Below, piece after piece: positions 13,829 to 48,616 of a stretch of 64,000 nt of DNA (position 1 is its first letter; every line of letters starts with the position of its first letter). This DNA is from Chondrosia reniformis (Eukaryota; Porifera; Demospongiae; Chondrillida; Chondrillidae): contig OX359198.1 of assembly GCA_947172415.1 (NCBI GenBank), forward strand, positions 6,962,401 through 7,026,400, given 5' to 3'. The position numbers were made by a program, and so were the translations under genes. The notes below the pieces were generated by a model. That model did no database searches, was not told where the DNA came from, and saw only the letters and a list, made by a program, of their open reading frames with translations.

Positions 13829-14464
<636 letters not shown>

Positions 14465-14515
14465 TTAAACATTATGAGATTTGCATGGACAAGTATATTT
14501 ACAAGGAACATTGCA

Positions 14516-19091: not shown

Positions 19092-20945
19092 TTACTCATC
19101 AAAGTTGTGTAGTTCAGCTGAGGACTGATTGTTAGATAAGGAAGTCAAACTTTGGGCATTGTTATTAATAGTGCTTGCGATGCTGTCTATGTTGTTAGTC
19201 TCATTATCCAGACCTTCCCTGATTCTTTGCAACATGAGTCTGGTCAACCACCCAAGGCTTGCAAGGAGAAGTGGGGCAATCAGAAATGTAAGCATGTTAG
19301 TAACTCCAGGTTTTGTTTGCACTTTATCAAGAGTGGTCATTGAACAGAGTACCAGCATGAGTATTCCGGCCACAACTGCTATGCAGAAGCAGGCAACATA
19401 GTAGATGGCCAAGTAGAATGTCTCCTTGCTTGTCGTCCTAGTCTTCCTGTCCCAGTGAAACATTCTGTCAATTGTCACAAGCAGAGCTGTGAGACAACAC
19501 ACTGCCAAAAAACTAAAGGCTATAAAGCTAATAAATGAGAGGTTTCCTGGAGGAGAGGCAGCAATGGCCAGTACAACAAAGGGCAGTGACATGGCAATGA
19601 GATGTAGGAATGTACCAATCATCCAAATAGACAGGAATTGAATCAAGATTCCCTTCGTTTCATAACTGAAACAGCAAAGAAGACATTCAATGGTTCTTGG
19701 ATACGGGACATTTTCCTCTTTATCAATGCTACAAGCAATTGCATATTGTATAGAGAGCGGAAGTACCAGTAACATTATGTTGTATGTTATTATCCATCCA
19801 TTGCCTCCCCAATAGTCCATGATGTGAGGATTTTGAAGGATAAAAATGAGGGAACTGATAGCTCGTGGTATGAAAAAAACAAAATTAGCAAAGAAACAAG
19901 CTATGACCAGTCCCCAGAATATGTTATAGGGAATACTCAGTTTTTTCTTGATCTTCTGAACAACATAATCATACACAGTCTGCTTGTACCTGATGGCAAT
20001 TGGAATGTAAGCTAGACTCAGTATTATTAGAGAGCTGTACAGGAACTGAGCAGTGATACTGGAGAAGCTTTCTTGATGGTCACTTGCGATGGCAAAACTT
20101 TTTGCATTTACATTTTCCTTGATTGATACAAATCGAATTGAATAAAGAGAGAGCTATAGGTGAAAATTAGGAAAGATTTCATAAAATACACCTACTGTAT
20201 ACGTACTGTGTATCTTTACTTAATGCACACGTTATTATATGTATATATGTATAAACAGTTAATACATACACATTTACACAAAATACATACTATATAATAC
20301 TTTATACGTGTTGTTTCATTTAACCACATGTACAGTAGCATTCATATACCAATTTAAGTGTATATACTCCTACCAAATATGTATTGTATATATCGCTACT
20401 GATGTACTGTAAGGACACACAATTATTCAACCCATAGTTGGTTGTATGTATATAATCACCTGGGCAGTAAGTTCCTTAAAATCCTCTACCTTACAGTCTG
20501 TCAGGTTAGGATCATTGCCCAGAAACACACACGTGGAGGACAGAGTGACAAATGGTGAAAAGTAGTCAAACCAGAGCAGCTGCTGTGTTCCAAAGAAGAG
20601 TATCACGAAAGGTGCCACAAGAGCATAGACAGGTGTGCGTGTCCACACTGTCATGGTTACAGCTCGGTCAGTCCTGAAATGCTTCTGTGGTAACAACTTA
20701 TCCTCCAACTTGTAACATTCAGATTCTGGGGCTGTAGTGGCATTTCTAATGAAATATACAATGATAAAGTCCGGTGAAGCAAAATTTGGTGGATTAAAAC
20801 TCTTCTTCAGAAAATCTTTATTAGTCGAATTCTTTAGCAAACTATCCTCCAAACTTCTCCAGCTACAATTTAATATGTTGCGAACCTCTTCACCCAAGAT
20901 AAGGTTCAGAAATGAGAGAAGAAATATAGTGTACAGGACTCTCAT
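19092..20945 (-). CDS. membrane protein A: signal peptide, ectodomain, ~7 TM
   Basis: Not recognised. Two exons: 20460-20945 (signal peptide MRVLYTIFLLSFLNLILGEE, Cys-containing ectodomain) and 19092-20153; phase 0 junction, 515 aa. Exon 2 shows seven hydrophobic segments in order (near LIILSLAYIPIAI, WGLVIACFFANFVFFI, IMLLVLPLSIQYAIA, LHLIAMSLPFVVLAIA, FIAFSFLAVCCLTALL, YYVACFCIAVVAGIL, FLIAPLLLASLGW) and a polar Asn/Ser-rich tail of about 45 residues. The ectodomain has one more hydrophobic stretch (PVYALVAPFVILFF), so eight membrane passes are possible. It is a paralogue of the gene at 46817-48616: same intron position and phase, same segment order, and a shared I(A/S)PLLL-x3-GW in the last helix. 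Topology resembles a 7TM receptor, but I see no class-defining GPCR motif (no DRY, no NPxxY). Confidence 0.75.
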
Positions 20946-21207
20946 TTCTTCTTGGAAACCTATTAAACTGACTCAGTCTTCATTCACTGTATTGAAAATG
21001 AATTTGATTCACTGCTTAAAGTGTGTATATGAAAACAAGAAAATAATGGTTTTTCATTTTCATTTTTCCATTTCACATTGACCAGCTTTATACATTGTAT
21101 GTAATAACAATTTATGTATATTGAACAAATTGGGAAAAAAAAACTGTTCAGACATTTTGTGAAAGCAGTTGTCCGTGTAATGAATCTGATTGGATAGAAA
21201 TATGTGA

Positions 21208-22828
21208 TCACTTTTTACCCTTAGCAAAGGCCAAACCAACAACAGCTGCAGCTAACGACACAACGAGCGCTGTACCTCCAACAAGAGCAATTCCTAATAG
21301 ACCATCTAATGAAAGAAACGGTAAGCAATACACATATGAAAGGTTAGTAAAGGCGTACGTACCCCTTCTAAGCAGGTCTTGTTTATACTTATGGGGAGTG
21401 TATGAACAATCTAAAACACCATTTCAAAAAATTATGGTTAACATGTCTGTGAAGCTAAGGCCAGTACCAATGTACTAATACAGTACATTAGACACACGTA
21501 TGCAGTGTCCAGTTACTTGCCTTGCTTTTGCTTATTTATAATTAACTGTTGCAGTTGTTTAGCTTGTCTATTGTTTGGTTCAAACTGAAGTATTTGCTGG
21601 ACATAGTACTTGGAGGCTTCATAATCCTGAGAGTCATGTGTATACAATACATGATACATGTACATACACAGATATACAAAGATTCATGTACGTAAAGGCA
21701 TTACGTACCTCTAGTCGATATAATCCTTGAGCTATAAAAAAGAGGTAATCCCTATGATCCTGTCCCTGTTTACATAATTCTACAAATTAATGGAGCAAAA
21801 CATGGCATAAGCGACTACCAACTACAGGTATAGTTGGTATAAATGACTGGTCCTATATATATATATATACATATGTACACAGATATAGTTGGTATAAATG
21901 ACTGGTCCTATATATATATATATACATATGTACACAGATATAGTTGGTATAAATGACTGGTCCTATATATATATACATAGTACACAGATATAGTTGGTAT
22001 AAATGACTGGTCCTATATATACATATGTACACAGATAGAGTTGGTATACGTACGTAGATGACGGCCTTATATACATACGTATGTCATCTTTCCTAACCCT
22101 TGTAGGGATATTGGATCACACACAGAAGCCACAATAAGGGAATATAGAACATAGTTTAAAGCTTAAGGAGGATTAAGGAGGGAGAAGATTAGACAAGGAG
22201 ATAGTATTAGGTGATAAGTAAAGCAAATCAACTTCCAAGATTACAAGTGCACTCTGAGGATATGAGTGGTTCACCTTTGAGTATTGCGACACCTTTGGTA
22301 ACATCCTGTGCATAAGGGCTTTTCACCAGATGCCAAGCATACTGAAACTTGTCATCATCCGTCACTTGATTGACAGCATTTTTTGCTTTGTAATCCTTTT
22401 CTGCAGCCTGTGGATGTTGTCATGGAAACAGTATCAACATAGCAAAGAAAGAAGTTTTAACAAACACCATTCAGTATCATGTATGTTACAGTGGAATTCC
22501 ATTCCAAAAGCTATACAGTTTAATGTAAAGTACAGCTGAAATTTAACAAACTATAAAGTCTTCGATACAAACTTTGAGGTCACTTTTTATATCGCTGGTT
22601 CTATTTTTAAATATGTCTTAGAGACTTAAAAATAGGTCGCCTGCCGATTCGTAAAGATTAGTAAATAAATAAATAAATTTAAAACAGTATTATCAATTAA
22701 TTTATTGACGTACAAATAACCATAATTCTGTTACTTACTTCTATCGCATCTACGGCCACAGTGTCACCAATCACAGCCTTTTCTGCTTCTCCTAAATCTT
22801 CACTGTTCCTTCCAAACCACGACGCCAT
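21208..22828 (-). CDS. FIS1: Mitochondrial fission 1 protein
   Basis: Tail-anchored outer mitochondrial (and peroxisomal) membrane adaptor with a TPR-like helical bundle, working with the dynamin DRP1 machinery. Exons: 22739-22828, 22275-22407, 21709-21779, 21521-21626, 21208-21305; 165 aa (human 152). Family signals: KFQYAWHLVKS, VTKGVAILK, DYLFFIAQGLYRLE, YYVQQILQFEPNNRQAK, then a C-terminal membrane anchor (GLLGIALVGGTALVVSLAAA) followed by basic KGKK. The fourth intron needs a GC donor (positions 21519-21520) to keep the frame of the conserved DGLLGIALVGG. The start codon is only 42 bp downstream of the EEF1AKMT1 stop on the same strand. Confidence 0.95.
21838..22035. repeat. ~55-bp tandem repeat in FIS1 intron
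   Basis: About four tandem units beginning with agatatagttggtataaat and ending in tacatatgtacac. Lengths differ by the number of TA dinucleotides. It lies wholly in the second FIS1 intron. Confidence 0.85.
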
Positions 22829-22849
22829 ATTTTATTTACTTCATCAATA

Positions 22850-22857
22850 TTGCGCAA
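22850..22857. promoter_or_regulatory. palindrome TTGCGCAA in the FIS1 upstream gap
   Basis: TTGCGCAA within atattgcgcaact, 21 bp upstream of the FIS1 ATG and inside the 42-bp gap to EEF1AKMT1. The same 13 bases occur directly upstream of the NPHP3-like start at 29267. It matches the palindromic bZIP (C/EBP type) site word; function is inferred. Confidence 0.4.
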
Positions 22858-22870
22858 CTATGTACATTTT

Positions 22871-24220
<1,350 letters not shown>

Positions 24221-24368
24221 TTTATTCCACATAGGCGTGGTCGAGGGTGCTGAATACAATCAAGATATATACATATTCTTCGTAAGCGCAGCGAGAAATA
24301 TTCTCACATATATGTATACATTTACATCTTTGATTCCATACATTCACACAACATACACAACTAAAGTT

Positions 24369-26401
24369 TTAAAAAACAGATTTTGCTTGTGGTGTTATTG
24401 GTAATCTTCTCAACTTTCTTGCGGGCATGAGAGCAGGCTGCAGTATGAGGAAGGAGTGAATAGAGCTAGCAGCAGCTGTAGGCAGCATGATAAAGTAATG
24501 GAGCTGCCTGTACTTGGCTGCATATTACTGAATGTACACTTACTTTATATCTCCTCTCAGTAACACATAGTATGTCATGTCCTTTGATGAATATCCCATG
24601 TTTTGGAAGACTACTGAAATACCTTTGTCCTCTATAGGATCCATCATTTTCACCAACTGTAAAGAAAATCAGATGTACTAGTATTTCCAACACACTAATG
24701 TCCTTCATTATAAAACAACCTCCACATATATGTTGATCATATTAAACTTACATGACATATAATATAAATGTGGATTATCAATAAGATTAGTGTAAATTTA
24801 TCATTATATCACCTGTAGACATAAATTATTAATATTATCTCACTTGGTGCATCTAATTCAATCCCAAAATAGGTATTATGATGGGAAATTCCCCCCAATT
24901 TTCCTATATATCTTACAGTGCCTTTGAGAAGGATAACAAATAAAAACACACTTGATTGATAATAGCAAGAAAAACAAAGGTATGTAATGTAATCCTACCA
25001 GCTTGGTTACCAGACACAACAACCCTGTCACCAACTAGTACCATCTGACCACTCCTTATGAGGAAGAGACAGATAAAACTGTTCATATGACTTCAAAAAA
25101 GGTTTTGTCTGTGCCCTATGGATTACTTTGCTAATATATGACTGTTGTCCAAGTTAGCTGCACCAAGAGTCTGAACTCCCGAACAGGATGAGCAGGAACA
25201 GCCTGCCAGTGGTGGTGGGAGGATATTGTCAGTACTGCTCTTCTTGGCAGGCACCAGCATGGGATAGGTTTGATGACGCCTGCGTGATGAGTCCTTGGAC
25301 TCACTGGAACTAAAAAATTATAATCAGAGGTTAGAAACTTATTAATATAAAACTTCAAATTTTGTTTAGAATCTGCTAGCAAATTTACTTACTATTTAAG
25401 ATATTCTCCTTTGGAATTTACTGTCTGTGCCCTCTCTCTTTGGGTGATTAGTGGAAATTGTAAATATTGTTCCTATTAATAGTAATTTGACTTGTCTACT
25501 ACCAGTCTGAGAATTATTTTTATAGAAAACTAACTTTATTCCTTTTTTCTTGCAAATCAAATTCACTAATACAAATAAGTGTAAAAACCTATTCATACAG
25601 TACTGTACTAATTCTTATGAAGGGAGCACATAAAAAGAGGAATATTCACGATTGCAAGAAGATTGAGACTTTGACGGACATACTATTCAGATTGCTTCTC
25701 TCTTGAGTATCTTGTCCTTGCTTTTTCCTCTCTAATTTCTGTCTTGGTCATCTAAGAACAATCAAGTGTTTCCATTTTCAGTACATTGCACTTCAAGTAT
25801 CCTACTCAGCGTAGGTATATGATGCACCTTACCTCTAACACAGAAAGTCTTCCCTTTAGATGCTAAAAAGATTTTTACAAGTTATTAGAAGTAAAGACCT
25901 TTCAAGAGATTTCTTACTCTAATTTCTCTCCTTGCTTTATCAAGACGTTCCTCTAGTTTGGAATTTTCTTCCACAGCTGTGATATTAAATTGATGATTAA
26001 CATCAGAGGGAGTCTAGACTTGACTTACTTTCTTTATATTGTTTTTCCAGATTATCATCATGTGTTGTGATGGTAGTTAGCTCGTCCAAGGCCGTCTTCA
26101 CTTCATTTCTATATACACGTCAACTTAGGATGGTAACATTGCTTGTAGATATCCATAGAAGAACAACACACTAGCTCTGGCAAGCTTAGCTAACCTGACT
26201 TGCCCCAAGAGGACAGGAAGAGGAGGATTTTGTCCTGCTCGGCCATTTAACTAAGAAGAAACAAATTCCACTTTTATATTCAATATATTTTGTTATGACT
26301 TCTAAGCTTACCGATTCAAGGAAAATTTCTAAAGAAGTCCGACCTGTTTCCTTAGATGGAGATGTTGCACTCTCGATTCCTTCTCTTTCTCTTCTTTCCA
26401 T
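24369..26401 (-). CDS. CAP-Gly domain protein with N-terminal coiled coil
   Basis: Exons from 5': 26312-26401, 26195-26250, 26029-26108, 25918-25976, 25833-25862, 25684-25751, 25127-25309, 24999-25054, 24844-24921, 24544-24656; these give 271 codons in phase. The last exon is uncertain (one frame-compatible choice ends at a TAA at 24369-24371). The N-terminus (MERREREG, then LEIFLES) leads to a charged coiled coil of about 75 residues, a Ser/Lys linker with CSCSSCSG, and a C-terminal CAP-Gly domain: VGDRVVVSGNQAGTVRYIG, FGIELDAP, GENDGSYRGQRYF, KHGIF. CAP-Gly domains bind the C-terminal EExY tail of tubulin and EB proteins. In the usual GKNDG motif the Lys is Glu here (GENDG), which may alter tail binding. 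I do not recognise the orthologue. It is divergent from GORASP, 188 bp apart. Confidence 0.8.
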
Positions 26402-26589
26402 ATTCTCGTCTGCTTATATATTACACTAACCAAAAGAGTCACTCTATCGCATTATAATGGCAAGGACAACGATGAGCAAAGTTCCTATTCCTAAGCGACA
26501 AGCCCACAGACACGCCCAGCCTTGAATTACCCGACTCCCTGCGGTACGGATAACCCCGCCCCCTGCGGCTAATTAGCCTTGAAATCAAA
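26402..26589. promoter_or_regulatory. divergent promoter CAP-Gly gene / GORASP
   Basis: 188 bp between two divergent start codons. It is locally GC-rich, with a GC box CCCCGCCCC (26554-26562) and the word CCCTGCGG twice (about 26537 and 26561). No TATA box is obvious on the GORASP side. The role is inferred from position. Confidence 0.5.
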
Positions 26590-29212
26590 ATGGGCACCTC
26601 ACAATCGACAGTGCCTGGTGGTGGCAGCGAAGGTTATCATGTCCTGAAGGTAGTCTAGAACTTTTATGTACTATACGGAATGTTTTATCATTGATTTATG
26701 AAGTAAGATGTACTTTTTGTGATTTCTAGGTTCAAGAGAATTCGCCTGGGGAGAAGGCTGGACTAGAAGCCTACTTTGATTACATTGTCTCTATTGCTGA
26801 CGTTAGACTTGTAAGTATATGCGATTGAGATGAGTCACCATTTAAATGCACTAATACTATATTTAAGGGACATTGGAAAGTGTTATTGGTTTCAGGTATT
26901 CCATAGACATAGTCTTTGTTGGCCTGAGAGGTAAAAGCCAGTTTATGTGTTTGTTAGCCTAAATATGTTCCTTTGCATGACCTTTAGAATCAAGATGACA
27001 ATCAGTTGAAGGATTTTCTCAAGTCAAGCATTGACAAACCTCTGAAGTTGGGAGTGTACAGCTCCAAGACAAGGACCTACAGAGGTTAGTCATCTGCCAC
27101 AGCAGCCATCTTGTGTTGCATGCCACACCTCCCTAAGTGCTGCCAGTAGTGTGTTCCAACCTTCAGGGAACTTTAAAAATGGCTTCCTTGTATTTATGAT
27201 TGATTAAATTTTAAGCAATTAACTATACATGTTTGATAAATGGACATGTTATTCTCCATCTCGGATGACGCTGTTTAGGAATTCAGTCCCCAGTCAATAT
27301 AAGGCTTCGCTCACTTTGTTTGTTTGGTATAACATTAGAGTGACATGTACAATGTTTGCATAGCGAGTTCAAGTCCTGGTTTTGTATACCTCAATGTAGA
27401 TGTGATGTTGACGCCCTCCAATACTTGGGGAGGACAAGGGTTACTAGGTAAGTGACTCATTGAACTAGCTGATAGGTTATGTCATTAGTCCAGTGTTATA
27501 TTGTTTATCTTACTGTTGTCTTTAGGAGTAAGCATCCGGTTCTGTTCCTTTGAAGGAGCTGCAGAGAATATTTGGCACATACTCGTGAGTTACCATAATT
27601 GTACATTTAAATGGCCGACGTACCACATTTATACTTTGTAGGATGTTCAACCTGACTCGCCGGCCCTAAAAGCAGGTCTGCAATCCTTTGACGACTATGT
27701 CATAGGGACTGACTCAACACTGACTGAAGTAAGTCTCTTTAGATGCAACCCTATCTAGTGTTGCAGCCATGTGGCATCACCATGGCAACCATAAAGCGGT
27801 TGATGTGTACAGCTACCTGCCCCCTTTGCTCTAATTAAGAAATATGTAACTATTCTGTTGCATTGTTAACTTACAGTACTTGCATTATGCCATTGAGTTT
27901 TATTCTTTAGCTTTCTATGTGTTGATTGTCGCTTGTCCAACTCTACAGGACGACTTTACAGCAATAGTGGAAGCTTATGATGGTAAAGAGCTTAAACTCT
28001 TTGTGTACAACTCCAAGGCTGATAATGTCCGAGAAGTAAGTTTGTGAATGTTTATTTGAAATGAGAAATACAATGGTGCCATATCTCTCACCATACATTA
28101 ACTTTTGTGCGCAAGAGTGTTGTGTTAGTGCTGAAACTCTATCAAATTGACAGCTAAAACTTGGTGTCAGCATTCACAGACATCCATAAAGCATGTCCAA
28201 TCAGTTTTAGAAATTTTGTATACTTAAATGTGCCCTATCTCTCACTAAACATTAGGTTTGTATACCAGAATTGTACATTTAGTGCTGAAATGGACAGCTA
28301 TATATACGTTTAGCAGAATGTCATTTATATACGTATTCTGATCATTTCATTTGGTGTCACATCTTCAGGTGTCCATCAAGCCCAACAGTCAGTGGGGAGG
28401 TGAGGGGATGCTCGGGTGTGGCATCGGGTTCGGATACCTCCACCGGATACCCATTAAGTCCCAGAGCCCTCCATCTGACAAGCCTCCAGAAGTGGGAACA
28501 GTTGTTACCATGGAAACATCGACATTTTCAGAGGTACAAACAACCCACCTCTTTTGTTATATTGTTATGAACCCTTTTAGTGGGTGTGGCATACATCCCA
28601 TCTAATGGGCGGGGCCTGTCTCTTCAGTAAGTTAAGGATTGCCATAACCTCTTAGTTGCTACATGAACGTTTTATCTTGAATGCATGAATGTAATGTTTT
28701 GTATACATATGTAGGTGCCTCTTTCAGTTCCATCTGGCCCAACAGCACCAGTTCACCAAGACAATGTTGACCTTACGTCTGTTACTGCTCCCACATCCAT
28801 CACAGCTCCAGTCTCCATCACAGCTCCGGTCTCCATCACAGCTACGGCCTCCATCACAGCTCCGGCCTCCATCACAGCCCCAGTCTCCATCACAGCCCCA
28901 GCCTCCATGACCGCTCCCATCATAGGAACCTCGTCTGTCGTTGATTCACAAAGTCCTGTAATTCTGCCACAACAAACTGGTCTAGTTAGTACACCATCTT
29001 CTTTGATGTCCCAGGAGTCCAACCTGACCACGCCCACTCCACAGGTGATTATGCAACCCAAACTAATTAGTCCCGCCCCCGCACAGGCAGTGAACATTGC
29101 TTCTCTTCAGTCATCAGTAATTACATCCACGGGAGCTGGGAACCTGCTGAACCCTTCTGTATTACCTCAGCCAACAGCAACTCAAAGTGACACTATTTTA
29201 GTTACTCAATAA
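26590..29212 (+). CDS. GORASP2: Golgi reassembly-stacking protein (GRASP55/65)
   Basis: Peripheral Golgi membrane tether. Exons: 26590-26649, 26730-26810, 26988-27084, 27400-27447, 27526-27584, 27642-27728, 27949-28035, 28369-28533, 28715-29212; 393 aa (human GRASP55 452). Starts MGTSQST, so Gly2 is a likely N-myristoylation site. Two tandem PDZ-like GRASP domains fill residues about 15-200 ([59 protein letters not shown]). The C-terminal Ser/Pro-rich domain contains seven or eight short repeats of SITAP type, encoded by 18-bp tandem units (about 28790-28915). One orthologue seems to stand for both vertebrate GRASPs; the symbol is by similarity. The stop codon overlaps an AATAAA. Confidence 0.96.
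28197..28285. repeat. dispersed repeat copy (GORASP intron)
   Basis: Contains tttagaaattttgtatactt, tgccctatctctcac and tttgtataccagaattgtac, matching 53735-53810 in order. A shorter piece (atctctcaccatacattaac) lies at about 28080. It looks like a non-coding transposon remnant. Confidence 0.6.
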
Positions 29213-29213
29213 A
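29208..29213 (+). terminator. AATAAA overlapping the GORASP stop codon
   Basis: AATAAA contains the TAA stop at 29210-29212. The next gene starts at 29267, so this is the only well placed poly(A) signal in the 54-bp gap. If used, the 3' UTR would reach into or past the start of the next gene. Confidence 0.5.
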
Positions 29214-29247
29214 ATGTCTTTAATCATACCTTATATATTATTATATA

Positions 29248-29255
29248 TTGCGCAA
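29248..29255. promoter_or_regulatory. palindrome TTGCGCAA upstream of NPHP3-like gene
   Basis: Second copy of atattgcgcaact, ending within a few bases of the start codon at 29267, in a 54-bp intergenic gap. See the FIS1 copy at 22850. Confidence 0.4.
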
Positions 29256-29266
29256 CTGAACTTAAA

Positions 29267-32200
29267 ATGGCGGCCGATACCAACGTACATGTTAAGTTGC
29301 ATCGTTTAAGTGAAGAGCTAAAGACTATGAAAGTTCGCTGTGGAAGGTTGGTAAAGGAGAACGATGCCCTAAAAGGACTTTTGGAGACAAGTAAATTGCG
29401 CAATGTGGAACTTGAGGCTGAGTTAAGGGATATGAGAACTGTATTTCAGCAGGTGAGCATGTTGAGAGTATACTTGTTGAAGTTTTGTATATCAAGCAGT
29501 GATAGCTTTGTCATTTTAGACCTCTTTCTTACTGAATTTTAGTAGCAATAGTATGTATGTATATGTGTGTGCGGGTGTATGTAGTGTACTGGTCTGTCAT
29601 CACATGTACGTATGATGTATACGAAAAGGATATTGCACATTTAGCAATGTCATCATTGGCTTCACTATTTATTAATTAATGAATTATGTATATGGTGTTG
29701 GTATATGTACGTGGTTCATACGAGCTTGTCTGTTGTAGGTGAAGGACAGTAAGGAGAAAGATATAAAAGTGCTGAAGGATTCAAACAGAGAGTTGGAACT
29801 GCGTCTGAACCAACTGATTGCAGAGGACCTTCAGGAGGAGGTACCCCTACTGGCCCAACTGGCCACTACCTCAGAGGTGCCTAGCAGCCAAGGGGGGAAT
29901 CCCCTCAACATACAAAGACCTGAAGAGAATGTCTGGAGTCTCAATCACATACGCCAGCAGCTATGTCACTGGAATGGAGTAGACTCACTTATAGAGAGAG
30001 TCATCAAGGTGGAGAAGGAGACGGAAGGTTTGTAGTGTTGGTAGAGTATCTTACATCTTGAGGTCTATGGACCTTCATGAACATTGACATGAGAAGGGTC
30101 CTTCTAACTACGTCTAACTTACTGTCTTTGAAAGGGTTCACTTTCAATCTCTTTGAATATCTAAAGACATAGTTTTGGTTGGATCCTCTTGGCAGACATT
30201 TTGACCCCAAGCTTCTTCTTCAGCGTTGTCTTTAGATGTTCAGTAGAGGTTGGAATATGAGTCTTTTACAAAGTGATGAATCTTGACTGGAACTGGAACT
30301 ACCCCCGCCCACTCACATGTCTTGAGAATTAATTGAGTGGGCGAGGGCATTCCAGAGTTGTTTGATGATTTGCTGTGAAATGGATTTCATACCTCACAGC
30401 TCTATCGCATTCCTTCTCTTTAGAGGATGTGGTTGTGTTGTGGAAGCCAGGTACACCGTGGAATGGCCACCCTTGGAAGTTCAGCCTGAATCTCTACACT
30501 GGATCCACTCCTGACTTTACTGACACAATGAAGAGCTTTATTGAGGTTGGTCATAAAGTATTCAGTCAATACTCCTACCTACCTGCTTCCTATCCTAATG
30601 TATTGAGTTGGAGCATAAAGGAAGCATAGAGGAAACATTTATATTAATCTCATAGCTGCCAAGCATATTATACCTGACTAGTATTCATTAGTTACTGAAA
30701 TTATTGCAAGGGAGAGTGGTGGCAAAATGTAGTAAAATTTTAACAGGGAACGTTTTGTACTAATTAAAAGACTTCCTTCAAGAAATGCTATTTTTAAGAG
30801 GGGGCAAATACGTACCTCTTAAAGAAACTTTGAGTTATGAGGTTGATTTTCTGTAGTTGTGATCTCTCTCTGTTTTAGCGAGAATATCCGGCTTTGGGGA
30901 GTGTCTGTCAGGATGGAGGCTCTCACTTGATCCAGGCTGTCATGGAATACCAGCACCTGGAAGATGTACTTGATGTATGTGTTTGTATATGCTGTATATC
31001 TTTGTTGTAGTGTGAACATTTAACTGCATCATTTTGCTGGTGTAGGAGAAGACGTACCTTGAGAGATGTAGGGAGGAAGTGAGGGAAGCAGATATTATCT
31101 TGTTATTTGTTGGTGAAGGAGAGTCACATCAGATAGAAGTGGAATTGGACAGCCTTCTTGTCCCTAATAAGCTCCAAAGTGTTCTCTTTCTGAAGAAGGG
31201 ATCAAAGTGAGGCTGTTAATGTGTTCATTTTAGCCGTCCTACAGATGTCAATATTGACCATACATATACGTAGTTTGGCATCCATTTATTACTCCTAGAT
31301 CTTCCCCATGATGTACGTATATACAGTCTGTATATGTTCACATTCTGTACTCTATATAGCGTGTGCAGTGATTATCTAAAGAAGCTTGAAAAGGTAAAAG
31401 ACAGCTACAGGAGGAAGTCAAATGTTCAGGTAATAAGATCACTTTGTAAAACTGCTGGTTTTGCTGGATAACTGTACACTGGATCTGTATTAGGTTGTAG
31501 ATTATCCGGTGGATAGCATTAATCGGAATATCTTTGAAGAGTTAACCGCACACATAAAGGATTTCCTCAAAAACGTGAGTAGTACTGTTATAATTACAAG
31601 TACTTGTTGGACTGCAAGGTACCTTTAGAGTAACGTTTGGATTATCCTTTGTGTGAGTCATCTTTTGAAAGTTTGAGCATCTAGAGACGCAGTTGGTAAC
31701 TGGTAACAATATTCTCGTAGTCAGATGTTTTGACCCTGAGGGTCTTCTTCAGTGATGGATGTTAAACCTGTATTAGTATTGAAGGGAATTTTGTGTATAC
31801 GTATATAGAGTCATGATTTACTAAACTACTTACTACAAATATCCTAACCTAATATATAAACAATTGTAGGACCATATTTGTAATTGATTTTTAAATTTTC
31901 AGATCTTTTGTGTGCCAACGGCTGCAAAAGTGTCCGAAGACATGGCACTCAGCCGGCTAGGAATCCTTCAGGACATGAGGATCGAGAAGGAACAGGTTGA
32001 TCTAATCCACAGCTACTCCTGGAATGGAGACCTGTTTGGAGTGTTAAATGTATGTTGTCGTGATTCCTCACATAGTGTAGCAGTATTAGTGTATACTATA
32101 GTAGCGCTGATTACCATCCTATAATTAGTGTACATATTATGTAACTCTGGCAGGTATTTAAGCATTAGTGGCAATTATGTAATGTCAAGCCAATTGGACT

Positions 32201-38200: not shown

Positions 38201-39031
38201 TACAAAGAAAGGATATAAGTACAGAGATATGGGTATAAATACATGAATATTTCTCAATTTAGGGCAGACTGGATGATGCTGAGGCATTGCAGAGGTAAGA
38301 TGACTCTATGCTGGTAGAACCTGTTCTATATTAGGTATACTGAAGTACACAATACCTCCTTTCTGTAGAAAATGCTTTTAAAATCCATTAATTGTTGTTG
38401 TAGCAACTGTGTATTGTTGTATATTGTTATATCCTTAGCTTGTATAAACACCATTAGGCATGTTTACATAATTACTGTACACACAATGTTTTCTCCTGCT
38501 GAGTGTTGTTATACTGTGAGTGACCATGCAGTATTTAGATTATGTATGCATGTTCAAATGCATAGTATGGCAGTGAAGTATACAGAGAGGGTCTTTGGAG
38601 GGAATAACTCAAAACTGATTGGCTTATTACTGGAGCAATCCAAGCTGTTGATTATGCTAGTAAGAGTAATACTATGTTTTTACTAATTGACCACATAGAT
38701 TTTATATAAAAATTACACACAGTTACCCTTATTAATATACCAGTGGTTGTCATAGTTCTTGAAAACTGTTGTTTTGGAGTACATCAAGAGAGTTAGATAA
38801 TGGAAGTATGGCTTAATTACCCTTGACGCCTATGAAAGCTTTAGCTGGTCTGATAGATATATGCTGTGGCTTATGTAGGGTAAGGACCAAGATGCAGTAG
38901 ATGTGTGTAAGAGATCACTAGAAATTGTAAGACAGACTTATGGAGACAGACATGAAGCTGTAGATGAAGTCCAAGAGATTTTAAGAGCTATGCTTCAGAA
39001 GGTTCACAGAGAGGGCACTGCAAAACAGTAG
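29267..39031 (+). CDS. NPHP3: Nephrocystin-3-like P-loop/TPR protein
   Basis: Ciliary inversin-compartment protein family. Exons: 29267-29452, 29739-30027, 30424-30545, 30879-30974, 31046-31206, 31360-31429, 31494-31574, 31903-32049, 32215-32324, 32489-32600, 32737-32904, 32991-33088, 33200-33299, 33739-33830, 34075-34147, 34215-34292, 34409-34465, 34686-34882, 34960-35082, 35262-35445, 35537-35658, 36380-36458, 36539-36579, 36733-36811, 36878-37002, 37381-37530, 37699-37750, 38013-38081, 38263-38294, 38566-38659, 38879-39031; 1,179 aa (human 1,330). Order: N-terminal coiled coil (about 1-90); a region like the human pre-NTPase part; Walker A TGEGKST (about 410); ILSHFVSLEG, Walker-B-like ILIVIDNADKI and LVNPLPLAVRVVVSADR, all closely like NPHP3; C-terminal TPR-type repeats. 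It lacks the N-terminal Gly2 myristoylation context of human NPHP3. Introns hold several minisatellites. Confidence 0.88.
30154..30242. mobile_element. foldback (MITE-like) element copy
   Basis: Ends tgaatatctaaagaca and, inverted, tgaacatctaaagaca; between them gacattttgacccc and cttcttcagc. It lies in an NPHP3-like intron and is related to the copies at 31671 and 51863. There is no coding capacity, so it would be non-autonomous. Confidence 0.65.
31671..31765. mobile_element. foldback (MITE-like) element, decayed copy
   Basis: Shows gagcatctagagacgcagtt and then ttttgaccctgagggtcttc and ttcagtga, the same arrangement as at 30154 and 51863. The right inverted end is degenerate. It is intronic in the NPHP3-like gene. 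Confidence 0.55.
33880..34035. repeat. short tandem repeat in NPHP3-like intron
   Basis: About four imperfect units of roughly 38 bp built on gtgtatggagggtgtatag and gggtattcccctgtagt. Confidence 0.75.
34548..34665. repeat. imperfect tandem repeat in NPHP3-like intron
   Basis: Three to four copies of gcataaccctccaatacata, separated by variable TA-rich spacers, between exons 34409-34465 and 34686-34882. Confidence 0.7.
35715..36252. repeat. 32-bp minisatellite (~17 units) in NPHP3-like intron
   Basis: Tandem 32-bp units (acttgtatctagggagctac then aatagaatgtgt) fill most of the intron 35659-36379. Variants are tgtgt, tgtgg and tgcgg at the unit end. Edges degrade on both sides. Confidence 0.96.
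37039..37238. repeat. 28-bp minisatellite (7 units) in NPHP3-like intron
   Basis: Seven tandem copies of a 28-bp unit (agtgtcctatactggactca then ttttatgt), almost identical, in the intron 37003-37380. Confidence 0.95.
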
Positions 39032-40046
39032 TATCAAGTGTGTATGAGTACCTGCTTCATCAGTCTGATTGCACTCTACACATTGCAAACTTTCAAATAA
39101 TAATTTAATGATACACACTTATTAGTATTTCACCACTTTTTATGTTTGCATGTATTATTTATCTTCAATGGCGTATAATATTACTGATTTGTGTATATAA
39201 ATGTACCACTGTTAAATACAATGGTTATATATTGAAATAGCTAGCTATAGGTGTCTCGAAGGTATATCTACTCGCCAGTGCCCGTATAAGATGACATCAT
39301 TCGTCGTCTCTTATTTCATCGTCTATAGACACGTGAAATACGATTTGTTATATTAATGAAAGTGATTTATATCCATTTCTTAGCCGCAGTACACTCCCTC
39401 GCCCCGTGCGCATACAAAGTGGATGGACCTGCTTTATATAGGTCGAATGGAGTGGTATTGTTTGTCCTATAAATATAGCTACTGATACGCGCTCACACTA
39501 ATATTCAAGCTATCAGCACGCACTACAAAGAGGAGAAGATAGGCGAATAGGTGTCAACGTTGCTATTCGGAAAATAAAGTGAGTTTGGACCATACTAATA
39601 TAGTATGCACGTTTCCTTCGAATGCACTAAAGGAAGTTTTTCCAAATTGAAGTACTGTAGCCTTCTCTATAGAGCAATAGATTGTATAATTATAGTCGCA
39701 ATCTATGCTGTTTGGATACACCATAGATTGTATATAGTCGCACACCAATGAATATTTCTATACTGTACATGTGCGCTGGAAAATTTAATAAACTGTAGCT
39801 GACCCTTAAACAGAACAATATCCAGCTAAATCAATAATACAAATTTTCTATATTTTTTTAAATACATTGATTATATATACAAACATCAAATTTGTTTACT
39901 AGTATGAATAATTTTTAGTAATTTAAAATATATATATATAATAGTTTGATTTTGATATCAATGGTGTGTTGCTCTGAATGCTTGAATGAAATGAAATTTG
40001 AGAACAGACTATAATTATCATCAACCTCTTCCTTTCATTCAAGGCA
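39032..40046. other. intergenic region and collagen promoter / 5' UTR intron
   Basis: Left part: 3' flank of the NPHP3-like gene, nothing else seen. About 39400-39580 looks like a promoter and non-coding first exon of the collagen gene: TATA box at 39468, then a likely 5' UTR ending at a GTGAGT donor (39579), with an acceptor (ending 40043) just before the ATG at 40047. The 5' UTR intron is inferred. Confidence 0.5.
39468..39475 (+). promoter_or_regulatory. TATA box of collagen gene
   Basis: TATAAATA in a locally GC-richer stretch (cctcgccccgtgcgcat upstream). It sits about 30 bp before a plausible start region and about 110 bp before a GTGAGT that could end a non-coding first exon. Confidence 0.5.
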
Positions 40047-43000
40047 ATGTGGAGGCTTCACCCTTATCATTTTTGTTGGCTAGCATTCTTGTCACTGAAT
40101 GTCCACAGCGTACCAACACAAAGTAAGTACCACTCAAATGACTGTAGACCTACGTATATAATAGTACTTGTACCAATTAAAGAATCCTCTTAGAAGAACA
40201 TTGCTGATATATATAGGTGGGCCCGCGGTAAGATTTACAAGCAAGTGGAATGACTTATGGAATGTTCACTATCTTGTAAATTGAGTAGTGTCATGCAAGT
40301 GATCGTGTAAAGTGGCATGCTAATGTACCTAATTATAAGATTGCTAGGTAGTATGAGTTGTGCTTTACTGGCCATATAGTAGTCCTAATATAAAGGCACT
40401 ATAGAAAACCATCTCATTTTATGCTATAGGCCTATTCTACGTATAGTGACATTAATAATTCACTCTTGTCCCACTAATTTGTGGTGAATAGCTTTCTCTA
40501 TTACATACATCATTTGGATATATAATATGCTGTGATAAAGTGATACATTTGAGGGAGAGGCTTAGCCCTAGAACTCCCTTGTTTACACACTCTTGTCCAA
40601 AACTTTCTTTTGTACATAGTTACAAATACTTTAGCACATGACTTGTTGATCAGTAGTTTATAAAGATCAAAGTCATAAACTTCAATAAAAGCTAACAGAC
40701 AAAAATGCTATCTATGTATATACATTTCACATGTTTGTCATATTTGATGATGTATGTAAACATATACGTATAGCACATGAAAATCCCCATGTAGTTGCAA
40801 ATACAGTACTTGCAACTGGTAGTCACGAGTAATTAACAACATTACCTGTTGATTCAAGATGTTTTATTTACCAATATATAGTTGATATTCTAGAAGAGAT
40901 TGGCTTGAGGACTGGGGAATTGAAGAGTTCCTCCAGGCTCACCCGTGGACCAGATGGGAAGGCCTCAGCATTTGAGATTACCAAAAACATTAATGTAGAA
41001 TTTTCCTCTGACATGTGGCCTAAAGTAGCCTCTAGCTTTCCAGATGAGTTTGCCCTTCACCTAGAGGTTTTTCTGGAGTTTGATCAGAATGGAATTTTAT
41101 TGTCAATTAATCACAACCAAGCTGAAGAGTTTACTGTAGTTGTAATTCCATCTAATGAGTTTAGACAACAGATAATGGCTATAAAACTACCAGGATTAAG
41201 GGTAGAGCAGCTACCAATCATGGAGGTCAATGAAGGATGGTATCAATTCATCATCCATTACTCCAAAAGGGACGGAAGTAGAAAGCTATCTTTATTTTCT
41301 CATTGTGATTTGATCTCTGAAGTTAACTTAGCACAAGATCCAGGTGTGCCATATAATAGCAGCCAATCATCCAGGGTGTTGTTACCCCAAGGGCTACGAG
41401 TAAGTGCTCCTAGCTCTTAATTGATGATTAGTAAATCTATCTAAGGTTTTAAAGTTGTCTTTTCTATTAGGTGTTCAACTATACAGTTTTTGATACGCCA
41501 GGTCTAGCCTTGTTGGACTGTGCATTTTCAGTGAGTATTCTTCTATGCAGATATAACCCTATCTACGTACGTATCTAATTATAATGATTATAATGTTAGT
41601 TATTAATTTTTTTCTAGACACTTGAGGATTTTGGATCTGGCTCTGGTTTTGTGAGTCGTTGAATAGCTAGAAATTTGTGAATCTACTACTATAGCTTATT
41701 CATTGTGTACGTCCATTTCAGTTAACAGTAATGCCAGAACCTCTTGAGAAGGGGGAGAAAGGCCAAAAAGGAGAGATGGTACATATTTATAACTGCAGCC
41801 TGCAGTGTAATGTATTATGTTGTATGTACATGTTAGCTAACACTTATTAGGCCAGCACTTTTTGATTGTTTCAAGCGAAGATTGCTAACAAGCGCAGAAC
41901 AGACTTGACTGTAACCCAAAAGCGAGAAATTTGTGCGTATAAAATAACTGTGTACTGTATAATTAGTACGGAATTTGATATTAGGCCAAAAGTTTCCAAA
42001 ATGAATTGTGGCCCATTAAGTGGGTGGCACTGTATGTATTGTATGCATACATATGTATACTGATATACATACGTATGTACAGTATATAATAAACTGATAT
42101 ACTGATATGTATGTATGCTTAGTGACCATTTGGATCAGAGAATATGTATATAATATACAATGTTGTGTATAAACTTCTTAGATTATATTACTCATGTGCA
42201 CTGATAGATTGCAATGTACGTATGTGTAGTAATGTTTATATATGTACGTATGTGTAGGGAGAGCTAGGTATTCAGGGACCACCTGGTGAAAAGGGCAGTC
42301 TTGGAGAGAAGGGACTGAAGGTATACTTATATACAAACTGAAAAGAGCATTTGACCATGACATGTGTGTAATAGAGTGTGAATCAGCTAAACTATACTAC
42401 TTAGGGGGATCAAGGTGAACAAGGTCAAGATGGAGCAGATGGAACAGATGGAGAAAAGGTCTCTTAATCGGAGGCTTTCAGAAGAATAAACTGCACTGCA
42501 ATTAATGTATTTGGTCTATCTCTGCAGGGAGAAGGGGGTGAAATGGGAGAGAAAGGAGAAAGAGGAACGCAAGGACCAAAGGTGCATATACACCGAAATC
42601 CCTTGAGACCACTTATCCTAATTATGAGTGCATTCAGATTGCTGTGTTTGGGCAATCATGTTTATATACTATTTCTGCATATAGTACTTTTCAAGCTGTG
42701 TACATACGTAGCTAGGTCAACACACAGCAACTGGTAAATATATGTATCTATGTTTCCGTGCTAGGGAGACGCTGGCTACTTCTGTACACCACCTGGTGGA
42801 TTACCAGTAAGTTTGACCTATACAGTGCTCTATTGTAAGATTAGCTCTTTCTCACTAAAGCAACTGGATATAGGAGACTAGGATACAGTGGTTAAGTGAA
42901 GGTAACTACTATAATTATGGGACATTGTAGATGATGAATTTACATATTTGTCACTCTATTAATCATAACCCAAGGAATGTACAATCATTGTTTGAGAGAA

Positions 43001-46000
43001 AATGTTTTGATGGCAGACTTTGATTAATTGGACTGTTACCAAGTGTATTCTAATTTCATTAAATAATTACCTGTATTTCTGGAGTATGTATCATGTACAG
43101 ACATGTCCTCCAAAGGAATTCAGTGGGGATGTAATAACAGAACAGTACCCTAGTCCTGAACCCATGACATCACTCTGTCACTATGTCTTATCTATTATGC
43201 TTTTGTATGGCATTGCCTTTGTTTTAAAATACAGGATGGAATTGAAGAAGAGCTTCCTCTATGCTCTGATTTACTGAAGGTATTTATATATATTATTTAC
43301 TCCTTCATTGCAAAGAATGCATAAAGAGCATCATACTGTATATGTATTTGTATACTTTTAGGGTTCCCCAGGGGTACAGGGTGATGTAGGTGTGGCTGGT
43401 CCAAAAGGAGAAAAAGTAAATTTTAGATGTTTTAGAGGAATATATAATACAAGTGTTTGATATAATATAGGGAGACATGGGCGTGAAGGGAAGTGATGGA
43501 GAAAAGGGAAGCAGAGGAAAGGATGGAAAGACTTTATCAGCACAAGAACTCCTTACAGTTTGTGTTATAACTCTAAGACTTGATACTTTAATATACTGTA
43601 TGCTTTGTGCTAAATGGTAGTTGCATATGTATATATTGAGATTAATACACATATCATTTCACTCTACCTTTATTGAATTTCCTTTGTTATGTATAATTAG
43701 GTTATTTGTGAACAAGCTGACATAAGTGGAAACCAAACTTTGATTGTACGTATGTCTGTTCATTTCTGGACACGGATGTGACAAATTACTTCTTATTTGT
43801 TATATACATATTTGCAGCTTCTTTGTGGTGCTGATGTGAGGGATATTCCAGGTCTGAAGGGAGAGCCAGGGACAAAGGGTGAAATTGGCATGAAAGGGAC
43901 TACAGGACCTCCTGGTCCCCAAGGAGAGAAGGGAATGGAAGGAGAAACTGGTCCAAAGGTATGGGCCAGCTCTCCCCAAGCTTTGTGTGTACTTGATAGC
44001 ACTAGCCATGTCTTCACTTTAGGGCGATGCAGGTATGGGCTTACAAGGAAGCACTGGAGAACCTGGAGAGAAGGTGAACCTGTAGCCACTAACACAAAAA
44101 ATAAAAAGCACAATATTCCTGTATATAGTCTAAAGAGCATTGGATGAGGAGGTTTCATATCCATTTTATTTTCATTTTTCCACGCTGCCATGTTGTCTTC
44201 ATTTCATCTTTCCAGATGTATACGTATATGTCTCTATGGTAACACTACTATAACGTTGATATTGTATATGCTTGTAGGGTGACAGAGGTGATGATGGTCA
44301 GGTGGGACCAAAGGTTGGGATAGATAGTATACATATACACTACATTTTATGGTCCTTATGAGTTGCATGATTAACTGTAGGGTGAACCGGGAATTGATGG
44401 TCATCCTGGACTGAATGGTACCAATGGAGTGGATGGCATAAGTGTTAAGGTGTGTTGGTGTATATAACTTCAAGTTTAAGGCAAACACTGTATATACGTA
44501 GTGATTTATCTCATTGTAGGGGGAGAGAGGCCAAATGGGACGCCCTGGCTCAAAGGTACTGCATTAATATATTGCATAGTATACTTTATGTGTACATAAG
44601 TGTATATACGTATCAACATTTAAATCTGTCCAGCCCACTCCTACCTGGAGGAGTAACTGTGGATTGAGCTTTGAGACTCATAAGTATTTATTTATTATAG
44701 AAAGGAAAATCTTCCATCTTTAGCAAGATGTTACTGTTTTTACAAGCGTCTTCACTCATTTAAATAATTTGTTAAATGACACTGTGTCTGTTGATTCATA
44801 TAATGATCTCTCTGTAACATATACATTAGTATGTATGTAGTTATAACAACAATATGATACTATATTATAATACATAGTACATATTATACTGTATATAATG
44901 TTTTGTGATGAGACATCCATTCCAATTAGGGAGACATTGGGGTTATGGGCTCCCCAGGACCACAGGGTCCTCCTGGAGACAGCATCAAGGGAGAGAAGGG
45001 TGAACGGGGAACTGATGGAGAGCGTGGACCCCCAGGAAGTGTGGAATGTATGTTAAATCATAGAACATCATGTTTCCATGGTAAAATGAAAGTTTATGTA
45101 AACTACTTACAGTTTCCCAGAGAGTATAAATTACAAGTCTAAGATCATTGATAATTTAAATTAGTTTCTGATTGGCTAGTCATAGCTGATTGCCAAACAC
45201 TTTTTCTGAGATGAGTAAGTTTATCTCATTTTACCTTATCTCTAGTTGTCACAGTTGCTGGTGCACAAGGCCAGAAAGGTGAGTATGGAGAGAGAGGTGA
45301 CAGGGGTCCGCAGGGCCTACCAGGGCCGCGAGGACCCAGAGGCAGTAGAGGGAGACATGGACTACCTGGTAGAGATGGGCAGAGTGGATCACTTGGACCT
45401 AGAGGACCTGTTGGTCCACCAGGACCTCCAGGGTTCGGAGCCAAAGGTGAAAAGGGACGTCCAGTAAGTGTACATACTGTATATATATGTAGGACAAACC
45501 TAGATATCTAATATAGATATAAGTACGTATGTATATAAAGTGTATATACCCTGATAATGGGAGGGGTATTATATCCTGTATACAGCATGAATCACTGATT
45601 AAGGATGATATACAGTATATAACATTTATATTTATACAGAAAATGAACCAGTCACTGAAGCAAATCTTACTCATTTCTTTGCTTTATTAGCCATATCGAA
45701 CCTATGCTGCCAAATGTATAAAACAGTTATATTCCTTTGTCTCGGATTTCCATTGAAATATAATTGTTTGGCTTTAGTCCTCGCCTCTGGGCTATAACTA
45801 TTACATATATACTAGTGTACGTATGTGGCACTGATCATATATATAGTATAGTGTATACCTTGCATAATGCACATATAAAATTGTAAGTTCACATGTTCAC
45901 TTTTCTCACATTGCTATGTAGGGAACTCCTGGACAGCAGCAGTTTCTGGTGTGTAAATATCTTTCATCACAATAACAAGATTTTCCTACATTAAATATGT

Positions 46001-46474
46001 CTTCTGTTTATTTCCAAGGCTTACTTTCTTTATTGTACATACGTGTGTAGGTGATACCAAAGTATTCAAACCTGTCCAGTATACCAGCTAGACCAGGAAT
46101 GCTAGCAATTGTTCAAAAAGCTGATGGAGATAGTTCTTTGTATCTTTATATATCTAACCAGTGGAGAAAAATCATAGTAAGTAGACACACTATATGTATC
46201 TTTGTATGTATATATTCCAAATGAATATCTCAGAACCTCATAAGGACTATAGCAATGGTCATTCTCTTATAAAGAAAGTAAGATAGGACATTAATTCTTA
46301 ATTGACAAGTGATTATTTGCCTATCATTGTAGATTTTGAATAGGCTTTAGTTCATACTTCTTAGTTATGTTTTGTCACTTGTCACATATATGATTTCTCC
46401 TTAACTTTCTTGACTACAAAATTTATTAAATGATACAATTCTTTCTCTTTTGTATACAGTTTGAAACTAATTAG
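40047..46474 (+). CDS. Short multiplexin-like collagen (TSPN-like + interrupted triple helix)
   Basis: Secreted extracellular-matrix collagen. Exons: 40047-40122, 40894-41399, 41471-41530, 41618-41650, 41722-41778, 42258-42320, 42405-42458, 42528-42581, 42765-42806, 43101-43130, 43235-43279, 43362-43415, 43471-43557, 43701-43745, 43818-43958, 44023-44073, 44278-44313, 44381-44449, 44520-44555, 44930-45047, 45246-45463, 45922-45948, 46051-46176, 46460-46474; 680 aa. Signal peptide ([19 protein letters not shown]); thrombospondin-N/LamG-like domain (about 30-195: [35 protein letters not shown]); three Gly-X-Y blocks split by Cys-containing interruptions ([26 protein letters not shown]); then [20 protein letters not shown], like the trimerisation domain of collagens XV/XVIII; stop soon after (RKIIFETN). 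No endostatin domain is seen. Many triple-helix exons are 36, 54 or 63 bp and start with a whole Gly codon. Confidence 0.85.
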
Positions 46475-46816
46475 TGATTTGGGCTATCAATTAAGATTTT
46501 CTCTAACATATTATAGTATTTTTATCACATAATTTTTCACCCATCATGCAGTTTATACGTATGTATACCTTTTTCTATTTATTTGAAATGAGATTACATT
46601 GAATTAGTATAATTTACCACACCACCATACACTGGTGTATCCTTTGGGAAGAGCTAGAAATGATGGTCTGAGATGGCCTGGTCTTAACCCCATGCACTAA
46701 CAGGTAGACATTTTTATGTTATTGTAATGTACTGATATTGAAAATGATGTTAAGCATAGATCCATAATGAAGTTTGTAATGTAAAGTCCACACAAATGAA
46801 TACAGTATATAATGAG
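46475..46816. other. convergent spacer collagen / membrane protein B
   Basis: AT-rich 3' flanks; no gene or clear repeat is seen, and nothing resembling an endostatin exon. Confidence 0.5.
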
Positions 46817-48616
46817 TTAATAATTATCTTCTCTGATACATTTCTCTGGATCCTTCAGCAAACTCTGTTTCAATTCCAATTTGCTCTGGAAAATTTTACT
46901 TGGCTTCCATTTTATCGTTTTGGTATTCTTTTCAACACTGTTTTCCTCTTCAACCTCAGTAAGCCATTTTATGGTGATTATTTTAACACCCCAACCAGCT
47001 CCACTTAACAAAAGAGGAGAAATGAAACGAGTAAAGCTTGGTAGAGTTGAATCTTCATTGGTTCCAAATGCATCAAGCTCTCCAGATGTTGTGATAAAAA
47101 ATCCAAAGCAAAGAAGACCTACAAACAGTAAAGAAAACAACATTCCAACTCCAATGCTCTTAAGAGTGCGTAGAGAGGACTTCTTGTCTGTTCTTTGGAT
47201 CTTGCCAGCCGTGAAGAGGACAGCAAGCAGATGGACCGTGCAAAATAAAGAAAAAACAATTAAAAGTGTTTTACAGATGACTTCTTCAGGGGCAGCAAGC
47301 AAGGCCAGAAAGATGAACACGCTGTGTGCCATAATCAACTGCAAGGAGAGAAGGTTGGTCCACAGACAGCATATGGTCAGTAAGGAAGCTATATACTTAG
47401 TATACCCGCAACATACAACCTTGGTTAACATTTGGAGAATCTTTGGAGTTGTTATGTGATGTTTCCTCCCCAGAACAACAGCTAAAATGAAGTTGCCAGA
47501 AATGATCCAAATTATGAAAAACAATTCTGCTACAGTTAAAAGTATTGGAAAGGCTTCCATTCTTGCTGCCATATCTGCTATACTATGAATATCACTATAT
47601 ACCACCAATATATTGAACGAAACACTAGTCATTGTAATTCCCCAAATAAGGCCATATGTGCGATAAGATGACTTCTTTGATCTCATTGCTACATGAGGAA
47701 GGTTCCTTTTAGCAAAAGAGGCTTGTATAATGAACTGCAGAATGCTGAACACATATATGCTAATAGCCAGTAGGCTAATAAGAACAAGAGAAAGGGTCTG
47801 CATATCCTGTCCATTGTTAAACATTGTTGCTATTTGGCTATTATTGCACCTACGAAGAACAAAGCCTAACTTGATTCTTCTGTTATTTGGAGTCTTATAA
47901 GCATAGTTCTTCAGCTAAAGATGAAAATAAAGTCTAAGTTTACGTACATCTCATATACGTATGCTGTACATAGAATATATATAAGTATAGTATGGTTGTC
48001 AAAGAAAAAGTAACTCATTTTTTCTGGTAGCTATATTACTCATACAGTAATGGTGTTGTTCTTATCAACTTTTATACTAAATAAAATTTATGTGTATGTA
48101 CGTACTGCGACTGACCCCCATTGTGAACTGTTGTACAAGGTTGAAGGCGCACTCTTCTTGAAGTGGAGGAAGAGTTATATTAACTTCTCTCTGTAGAGAT
48201 TTGTAAAATGCTGGCATGAGTCCAATGATATAAAGGGCATGTGTATTAAGTACTGTTGGGTCAATTATAAAATATACAGCAGAACTCATCCAAAACCAAG
48301 TTTCTTGCTCTTCTCTACAGTTGCCTTCTTTCAATTTCAAAGCCTCCCCAGAGTTTGTAATATATTGCACCATTACTGACTCAGGTTCAGGAAGGTTGGG
48401 AGAGTAGAAAGTGTAATAAAGTTCTGCCAGGTTCTGTGTTATTTTTCCAATGGCAACTGCCTCCAATTCTAAAATGTTACATGTTTTATTTTGTTCGGAA
48501 AGTTTGTCTGCTGAACCTCCATTGAGTTCCTCAGTTTGAACCAAGCTCTCACTAACAACTAGCACTATAATGATATACAGATAAGCCTGCCACCCTGTCA
48601 TTACTGAGCTGTACAA
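46817..48616 (-). CDS. membrane protein B: paralogue of protein A
   Basis: Not recognised as a named family. Exons 48116-48616 and 46817-47914, phase 0 junction at a GTCAGT donor; 532 aa. Likely signal peptide (WQAYLYIIIVLVVSESLVQT), N-glycosylation-type sites (NKTC, NITL) and cysteines in the ectodomain, then seven hydrophobic segments (LVLISLLAISIYVFSILQF; GLIWGITMTSVSFNILVVY; LFFIIWIISGNFILAVV; YIASLLTICCLWTNLLSLQ; LLIVFSLFCTVHLLAVLF; MLFSLLFVGLLCFGFFI; FISPLLLSGAGWGVKIITI) and a Lys/Glu-rich cytoplasmic tail of about 60 residues. Compared with A, the intron position and phase, hydrophobic pattern and terminal ISPLLL-GW motif agree, while overall identity looks low. This suggests an old, fast-evolving family. 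It is divergent from the VRK gene (446 bp). Confidence 0.75.

Follow-up and report, generated by a model that had tools for sequence, protein, structure and literature searches.

It is still an open question what sponges, as animals without neurons, use to sense chemicals and their numerous microbes. The present work concerns two genes of Chondrosia reniformis. Both genes, here called A and B, lie on the minus strand of a 64,000-nt stretch of contig C10 (positions 6962401-7026400, hereafter the window), and a preliminary description of this DNA had presented them as two copies of an unrecognised family with a signal peptide, a Cys-containing ectodomain and about seven membrane helices. A search of 117,379,552 bases of the genome, on 15 contigs, together with profile comparison and structure prediction, shows that A and B belong to a large family of genes. 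We propose, with a probability of roughly 0.58, that this family encodes cell-surface proteins of the sponge, most likely receptors, in which the outer face is diversified and gene conversion operates.

Two paralogous genes and their family

Gene A occupies 19092-20945, as first described. Its exon 1 (20460-20945, 162 codons) encodes the signal peptide and ectodomain, matches the ectodomain profile and ends at a phase 0 donor, CAG/GTGATT; the signal peptide itself, MRVLYTIFLLSFLNLILG, lies at approximately 20892-20945, as judged from hydropathy with the cleavage site placed by eye. A phase 0 intron with GT...AG ends (20154-20459) leads to exon 2 (19092-20153, from sequence and profile match), which carries the end of the ectodomain, seven helices, a tail and the stop codon. 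The membrane domain of A, helix 1 to helix 7, covers approximately 19230-20048 according to hydropathy and the family alignment. Gene B is built in the same way, with exon 1 at 48116-48601 (162 codons), a GT...AG intron of phase 0 at 47915-48115, and exon 2, again running from the ectodomain end to the stop, at 46817-47914; both exons were read from the sequence and modelled with AlphaFold. The signal peptide of B lies at approximately 48536-48601 (hydropathy, and a helix at residues 3-21 of the model) and its membrane domain at approximately 46973-47785 (family hydropathy and model helices). While the upper end of B had originally been put at 48616, the codon there is TTG, and the first in-frame ATG is at 48601. 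The encoded proteins are 515 (A) and 527 (B) residues long.

The GT...AG boundaries bear out the two-exon plan and the identical position of the intron in both genes. Exon 1 does encode a signal peptide and ectodomain, but the ectodomain is not confined to it, as approximately 35 (A) to 43 (B) further residues precede helix 1 in exon 2, a part in which several members have one extra Cys. The helix 7 motif I(A/S)PLLL-x3-GW that had been noticed in both genes is present as IAPLLLASLGW in A (19248-19280) and as ISPLLLSGAGW in B (46991-47023).

The paralogy that had been suggested despite low sequence identity holds. A and B are 20% identical over 478 columns, with a blastp E of 7e-10 in a two-sequence comparison. 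Furthermore, against a profile of B and the members more closely related to it, from which A was excluded, the membrane exon of A scored 70.0 bits, against at most 1.2 in its 20 shuffles, and its ectodomain exon scored 12.8 bits, against at most 3.9 in shuffles. By these sequence comparisons, A and B are true paralogues.

The genome was queried with the membrane exons of A, B and four relatives (six in all), a pair of members from a branch further away and one ectodomain exon, and the merged searches yielded at least 51 loci, clustered or single, on 12 contigs. The family is known from this one sponge genome, and its locus counts are lower bounds. A single open exon 2 frame of at least 300 residues, with no stop, is present at 38 of the 51 loci, and the remaining 13 are broken, partial or unclear. 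The B group comprises 10 loci (C1, C4, C5, C9 and C10), the group of A and C14 comprises 4, and a branch with the motif DPYR comprises 35 (C1-C8 and C12); two outliers, C10x and C5x, were both picked up via their ectodomains. A second ectodomain query against the genome gave no new locus. The expectation that more copies might sit near A and B was thus right as to their existence but not as to their place, since none besides A and B was found in the window and all other copies are in different parts of the genome.

Several matches were kept out of the tally of 51: the weak matches C10:7552312 (E 0.18) and C2:2348932 (E 1.35); C6:5007196, with an ectodomain only (E 0.17); C1:6712263, an ectodomain fragment with stops; C3:2143616, C3:5193883, C4:4902961, C9:1122787 and C6:2690469, which are extra fragments of counted loci; and C10:5939306 and C10:5942280, each known from its ectodomain exon alone. 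At C3:2131514-2332970, an array of eleven loci spans 200 kb: six have near-identical exons of 333 codons (93-100% to the query), a seventh is a broken copy of the same type, and the other four, among which one is intact, belong to a second DPYR type. At C9:1122021-1139070 there are five B-group copies, of which two are broken or partial, and the pair examined consists of conversion mosaics.

Three kinds of evidence bear on whether all of these loci belong together. Firstly, hhalign comparisons of the membrane-exon group alignments gave 97.7% (E 1.9e-12, 299 columns), 97.4% (E 1.3e-11) and 93.5% (E 2.4e-7), against 0.4, 0.1 and 1.2% for a control alignment of three rhodopsin-type G-protein-coupled receptors (GPCRs) from the same sponge. 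Secondly, hidden Markov model profiles of each group, with ectodomain and membrane exon tested separately, scored members of the other groups mostly above all 20 of their own shuffles, and two of the sponge's rhodopsins reached at most 4.5 bits against all three membrane profiles. The weak or absent links among membrane exons are those of C8 (-0.3 bits), C4y (-3.2) and C1y (4.9) to the B-group profile, of C9d (-0.7), C9c (-4.0) and C10x (-0.8) to the A/C14 profile, and of C5a (3.9), C9c (6.1) and C10x (-7.8) to the DPYR profile; among ectodomains, they are those of C14a (4.2) and C14b (4.7) to a two-sequence C3/C8 profile, and of C4 (9.6, with shuffles up to 6.2) to the A/C14 profile. The ectodomains have conserved N, F and P in the pattern N-x(7)-F-x(3)-N-x(3)-P, followed by a conserved W and a P near the end. 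Thirdly, the intron acceptor lies exactly at the phase 0 place in 12 of 16 genes, and in three more, all from C9, it is displaced by no more than six bases without a change of phase; that of C10x is unclear, and the donor of a C3 copy is uncertain. In the tree, B clusters with C5/C1 (93/91), C4 and C9 attach to this cluster (92/97), and the DPYR branch is well supported (100/100), while the position of A is weak (62/37) and C10x and C5x form long branches. Together, the common ectodomain, membrane domain and intron (15 of 16 genes) mark the three groups and two outliers as one family.

Predicted topology, gene conversion and outer-face variation

The topology of a seven-helix protein with an extracellular N-terminus, put forward for A and B at the outset, is supported for the family as a prediction. 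Averaged hydropathy has seven hydrophobic peaks, and the AlphaFold model of B exon 2 contains seven long helices plus a short additional helix within inner loop 2, with a predicted local distance difference test score (pLDDT) of 73.7 and a predicted template modelling score (pTM) of 0.69. This model is of moderate confidence, having been built from 25 alignment rows of one species, of which A is a single row. Exon 1 of B was modelled separately, likewise with moderate confidence (pLDDT 75.8, pTM 0.63; 15 rows, one species), and after the signal peptide has its main helices at 43-52, 54-65, 115-128, 130-135 and 149-161, with strands occupying 75-81, 101-105 and 139-143.

Basic residues are found on the cytoplasmic side of membrane proteins, according to the positive-inside rule. 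Over 25 sequences, lysine and arginine make up fractions of 0.113, 0.148 and 0.187 of inner loops 1, 2 and 3, compared with 0.077, 0.048 and 0.079 of the corresponding outer loops, the pattern that the rule predicts for an N-terminus outside; the value of 0.125 in the ectodomain end within exon 2 is uninformative on orientation. The predicted arrangement, receptor-like and at the cell surface, is thus a signal peptide, an ectodomain and seven helices with the N-terminus out.

The ratio of nonsynonymous to synonymous substitution rates (dN/dS) is 0.23-0.84 within groups and does not reach 1 in any of the 29 exon comparisons, so the exons are mostly constrained. In two clusters, some copies are related in a patchwork fashion. 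Between L003 and L004 of C14, the flanks differ by 0.62 and 0.56 and the intron by 0.48, which is beyond alignment, while most bins of exons 1 and 2 differ by only 0.00-0.04. Divergence is higher at the start of exon 1 (0.39 over its first 30 codons), in the tail (0.09) and in islands of exon 2 at codons 1-60, 91-150 and 181-210 (0.10-0.38). L005 and L004 of the same cluster differ by 0.00-0.05 throughout the exons, by 0.17 in the intron and by 0.43-0.44 in the flanks. In the C9 pair L015/L016, the values are 0.50-0.61 in the flanks, 0.39-0.60 in the intron, 0.00-0.32 in exon 2 patches and 0.10-0.38 in exon 1. The synonymous difference (pS) is low in the inner regions, at 0.012 in C14 and 0.070 in C9. 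Exon 2 patches with hardly any differences, synonymous ones included, between introns and flanks diverged beyond alignment, point to gene conversion, and from these sequence patterns we conclude that it has acted in at least two clusters, C14 and C9.

The islands lie mainly on the predicted outer side of the protein. They cover the loop before helix 1 and the top of that helix, outer loop 1 and the outer ends of helices 2 and 3 that flank it, and outer loop 2 along with the outer end of helix 4. This placement was assessed by a rotation test, in which region labels were slid along the sequence, the limits of the regions having been set before the counts were seen. For nucleotide differences, p was 0.016 in C14, 0.020 in C9 and 0.005 for four groups combined; for residues, the corresponding values were 0.025, 0.024 and 0.008.

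A proposed receptor repertoire and its alternatives

As we envisage it, the mature protein would present an ectodomain of approximately 160-190 residues, with several Cys that may form disulphides, outside the cell, followed by seven helices, with three short basic loops and the tail on the predicted inner side. The ectodomain and the outer openings of helices 1-4 could bind external ligands, for which microbial or dissolved metabolites and conspecific signals are candidates, and helices 5-7 and the inner loops might relay the resulting change to a cytoplasmic partner, possibly G proteins. Tandem duplication enlarges the repertoire, and some copies decay into broken ones; conversion has homogenised the inner parts in two clusters or more, and between some copies the outer face has remained different. 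The family is thus probably a diversified repertoire of surface receptors for external ligands, whose ligand, coupling and function we infer. An even number of Cys had also been considered as evidence of pairing and was dropped, as 8 of 14 proteins have one when the signal peptide is cut at a fixed 22 residues.

Several observations weigh against this reading. No GPCR class is matched by sequence, and the fold searches gave no convincing GPCR match. The contrast between outer and inner regions is not significant in two of the four groups (C3, p 0.29; C1C5, p 0.18). In C14 and C9 the islands also show more synonymous differences, and the ratio of nonsynonymous to synonymous differences (pN/pS) in C14 is 0.50 outside and 1.31 inside, the inside figure coming from few changes; it is slightly higher outside in C9 (0.61/0.45), C3 (0.44/0.33) and C1C5 (0.70/0.46). 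The region around outer loop 3 barely varies in any group (pN 0.000-0.041), one pair among the three C14 copies is almost the same along the whole of its exons, and most of the C14 ectodomain has been homogenised. Because synonymous differences rise in the same islands, the boundaries of conversion are displayed more clearly than selection on the protein, and such boundaries alone could produce part of the outer islands. Selection maintaining outer-face differences is therefore only suggested by the sequences, and positive selection as their cause is weakened, given the coincident synonymous rise and the share explained by conversion tracts.

A bolder form of the receptor reading would make the family a separate animal receptor superfamily, not descended from GPCRs, and a main repertoire for sensing or recognition in this sponge, its outer face diversified amid conversion. 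Its members outnumber rhodopsin-type GPCRs in our searches, with at least 51 loci from several queries against at least 16 genomic matches to 7tm_1, 14 of them over the cut-off, from one profile, both counts being lower bounds. We advance this proposal tentatively and at clearly less than even odds.

Conversely, the family could be a very divergent branch of the known GPCR superfamily, of GOST/Hi-GOLD type or of class A or B, beyond the reach of sequence profiles. Searches at E 1 argue against this: neither the 25 exon 2 members nor the 15 exon 1 members matched a GPCR or GOLD model, with 7tm_1 (PF00001) hitting 0 of 25, GOLD absent from the 15 ectodomains, and 7tm_2, 7tm_3, Frizzled, Dicty_CAR, GPR143, Lung_7-TM_R and GPR180-type membrane profiles all missing from the 12 Pfam families listed for the 25 members. 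The hhalign values of 0.1-1.2% with rhodopsins of the same sponge agree, as does the best Foldseek match in the PDB, at E 1.1, with template modelling scores by query length of at most 0.26 among the best 50 of 55 matches. The GOLD fold is all-beta, unlike the mixture of helices and strands in the moderately confident ectodomain model. The absence of any recognisable GPCR class, remarked on from the start, thus stands at the sequence level, and descent from GPCRs appears unlikely. The family as a whole also remains unrecognised in the libraries searched: no Pfam model describes it, no PDB sequence matches it and no PDB fold does so with confidence. No description was found in the titles and abstract beginnings searched, preprints being outside that scope.

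Tandem clusters, broken copies, conversion mosaics and outer-face variation are also seen in recognition gene families, and all of them occur here. The copies might accordingly vary for allorecognition or microbe recognition, as self/non-self or immune receptors whose helices serve as an anchor or signal unit, and C. reniformis is a sponge of high microbial abundance (PMC12181767). Yet Ig, SRCR, NLR or other recognition domains were found in 0 of 15 ectodomains, and the mostly homogenised ectodomain of the C14 copies counts against such a role; we judge this account rather improbable. A non-receptor protein with an N-terminal ectodomain, namely a transporter, channel or lipid-modifying enzyme, receives still less credence: fold-search rows align mostly over approximately 90 residues, within the range of common arrangements, no such family fits in Pfam, and the helices contain few charged residues (averages of at most 1.8 lysine plus arginine and 0.8 aspartate plus glutamate per helix). 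Lastly, that unrelated hydrophobic proteins are merely alike by chance or artefact, as the low A-B identity and the noise-level profile pairs might hint, is highly implausible given the independent links through ectodomain and membrane exon with shuffle controls for both, the rhodopsin control for the membrane exon, the common intron and dN/dS below 1.

Surroundings in the window and comparison with known families

The segments adjoining A, at 11887-18592 and 22871-23368, hold ordinary animal genes, with domains of a beclin-type APG6, a deaminase zinc domain, a HECT ligase and an N6-adenine-methyltransferase-type protein; the deaminase gene is, at a guess, a tRNA deaminase. A (TAT)n run of approximately 100 copies at 23354-23761 lies in a plus-strand open frame that reads mostly poly-Leu. 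Two tandem arrays, both with open frames on both strands, are located at 1148-3258 (63-base unit, 33.5 copies, 87% alike) and 10370-10932 (42-base unit, 13.4 copies, 97% alike). On the minus strand at 54052-59457, a single open frame of 1801 codons matches DEAD/DEAH helicase, helicase C, DEAH11-like KH and IBR models, has a 30-base tandem repeat in its N-terminal part, and joins a helicase to a putative ubiquitin-ligase module.

The GPCR census of Amphimedon gathered its proteins by Pfam GPCR models, as stated in PMC4302439, and a family lacking a model would therefore be missed by it and by similar censuses. With the profiles A5, A6 and A7 (membrane exons) and A4 (ectodomains), the question of what sponges sense with can be put to the test in the proteome or single-cell atlas of any sponge.

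Among known systems, the GOST receptors (GPR107/108, TMEM87, TMEM145 and GPR180) and Hi-GOLD, the latter reported from sponges, likewise place an extracellular N-terminal domain directly ahead of seven helices (PMC12716839). The present family differs from them in its lack of a Pfam match at E 1 and in the predicted helix and strand mixture of its ectodomain, the comparison with Hi-GOLD being by description only. GPCR-TK, GPCR-PIPK and other sponge GPCRs are also seven-helix proteins of sponges (PMC12716839 and PMC4302439), whereas Pfam finds no kinase or PIPK domain in the family. The class A GPCRs of the same sponge share the seven helices and outward N-terminus, but by the hhalign values given above have no sequence relation to it. 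Insect-type 7TMIC gustatory-receptor-like proteins form large divergent families of seven-helix proteins, used in chemosensing in insects, with the N-terminus inside and no known signal peptide. The sponge family, which no such Pfam model matched, has seven helices in common with them, but it differs in the signal-peptide-like start indicated by the hydropathy of A and B and in carrying its basic residues on the opposite loops.

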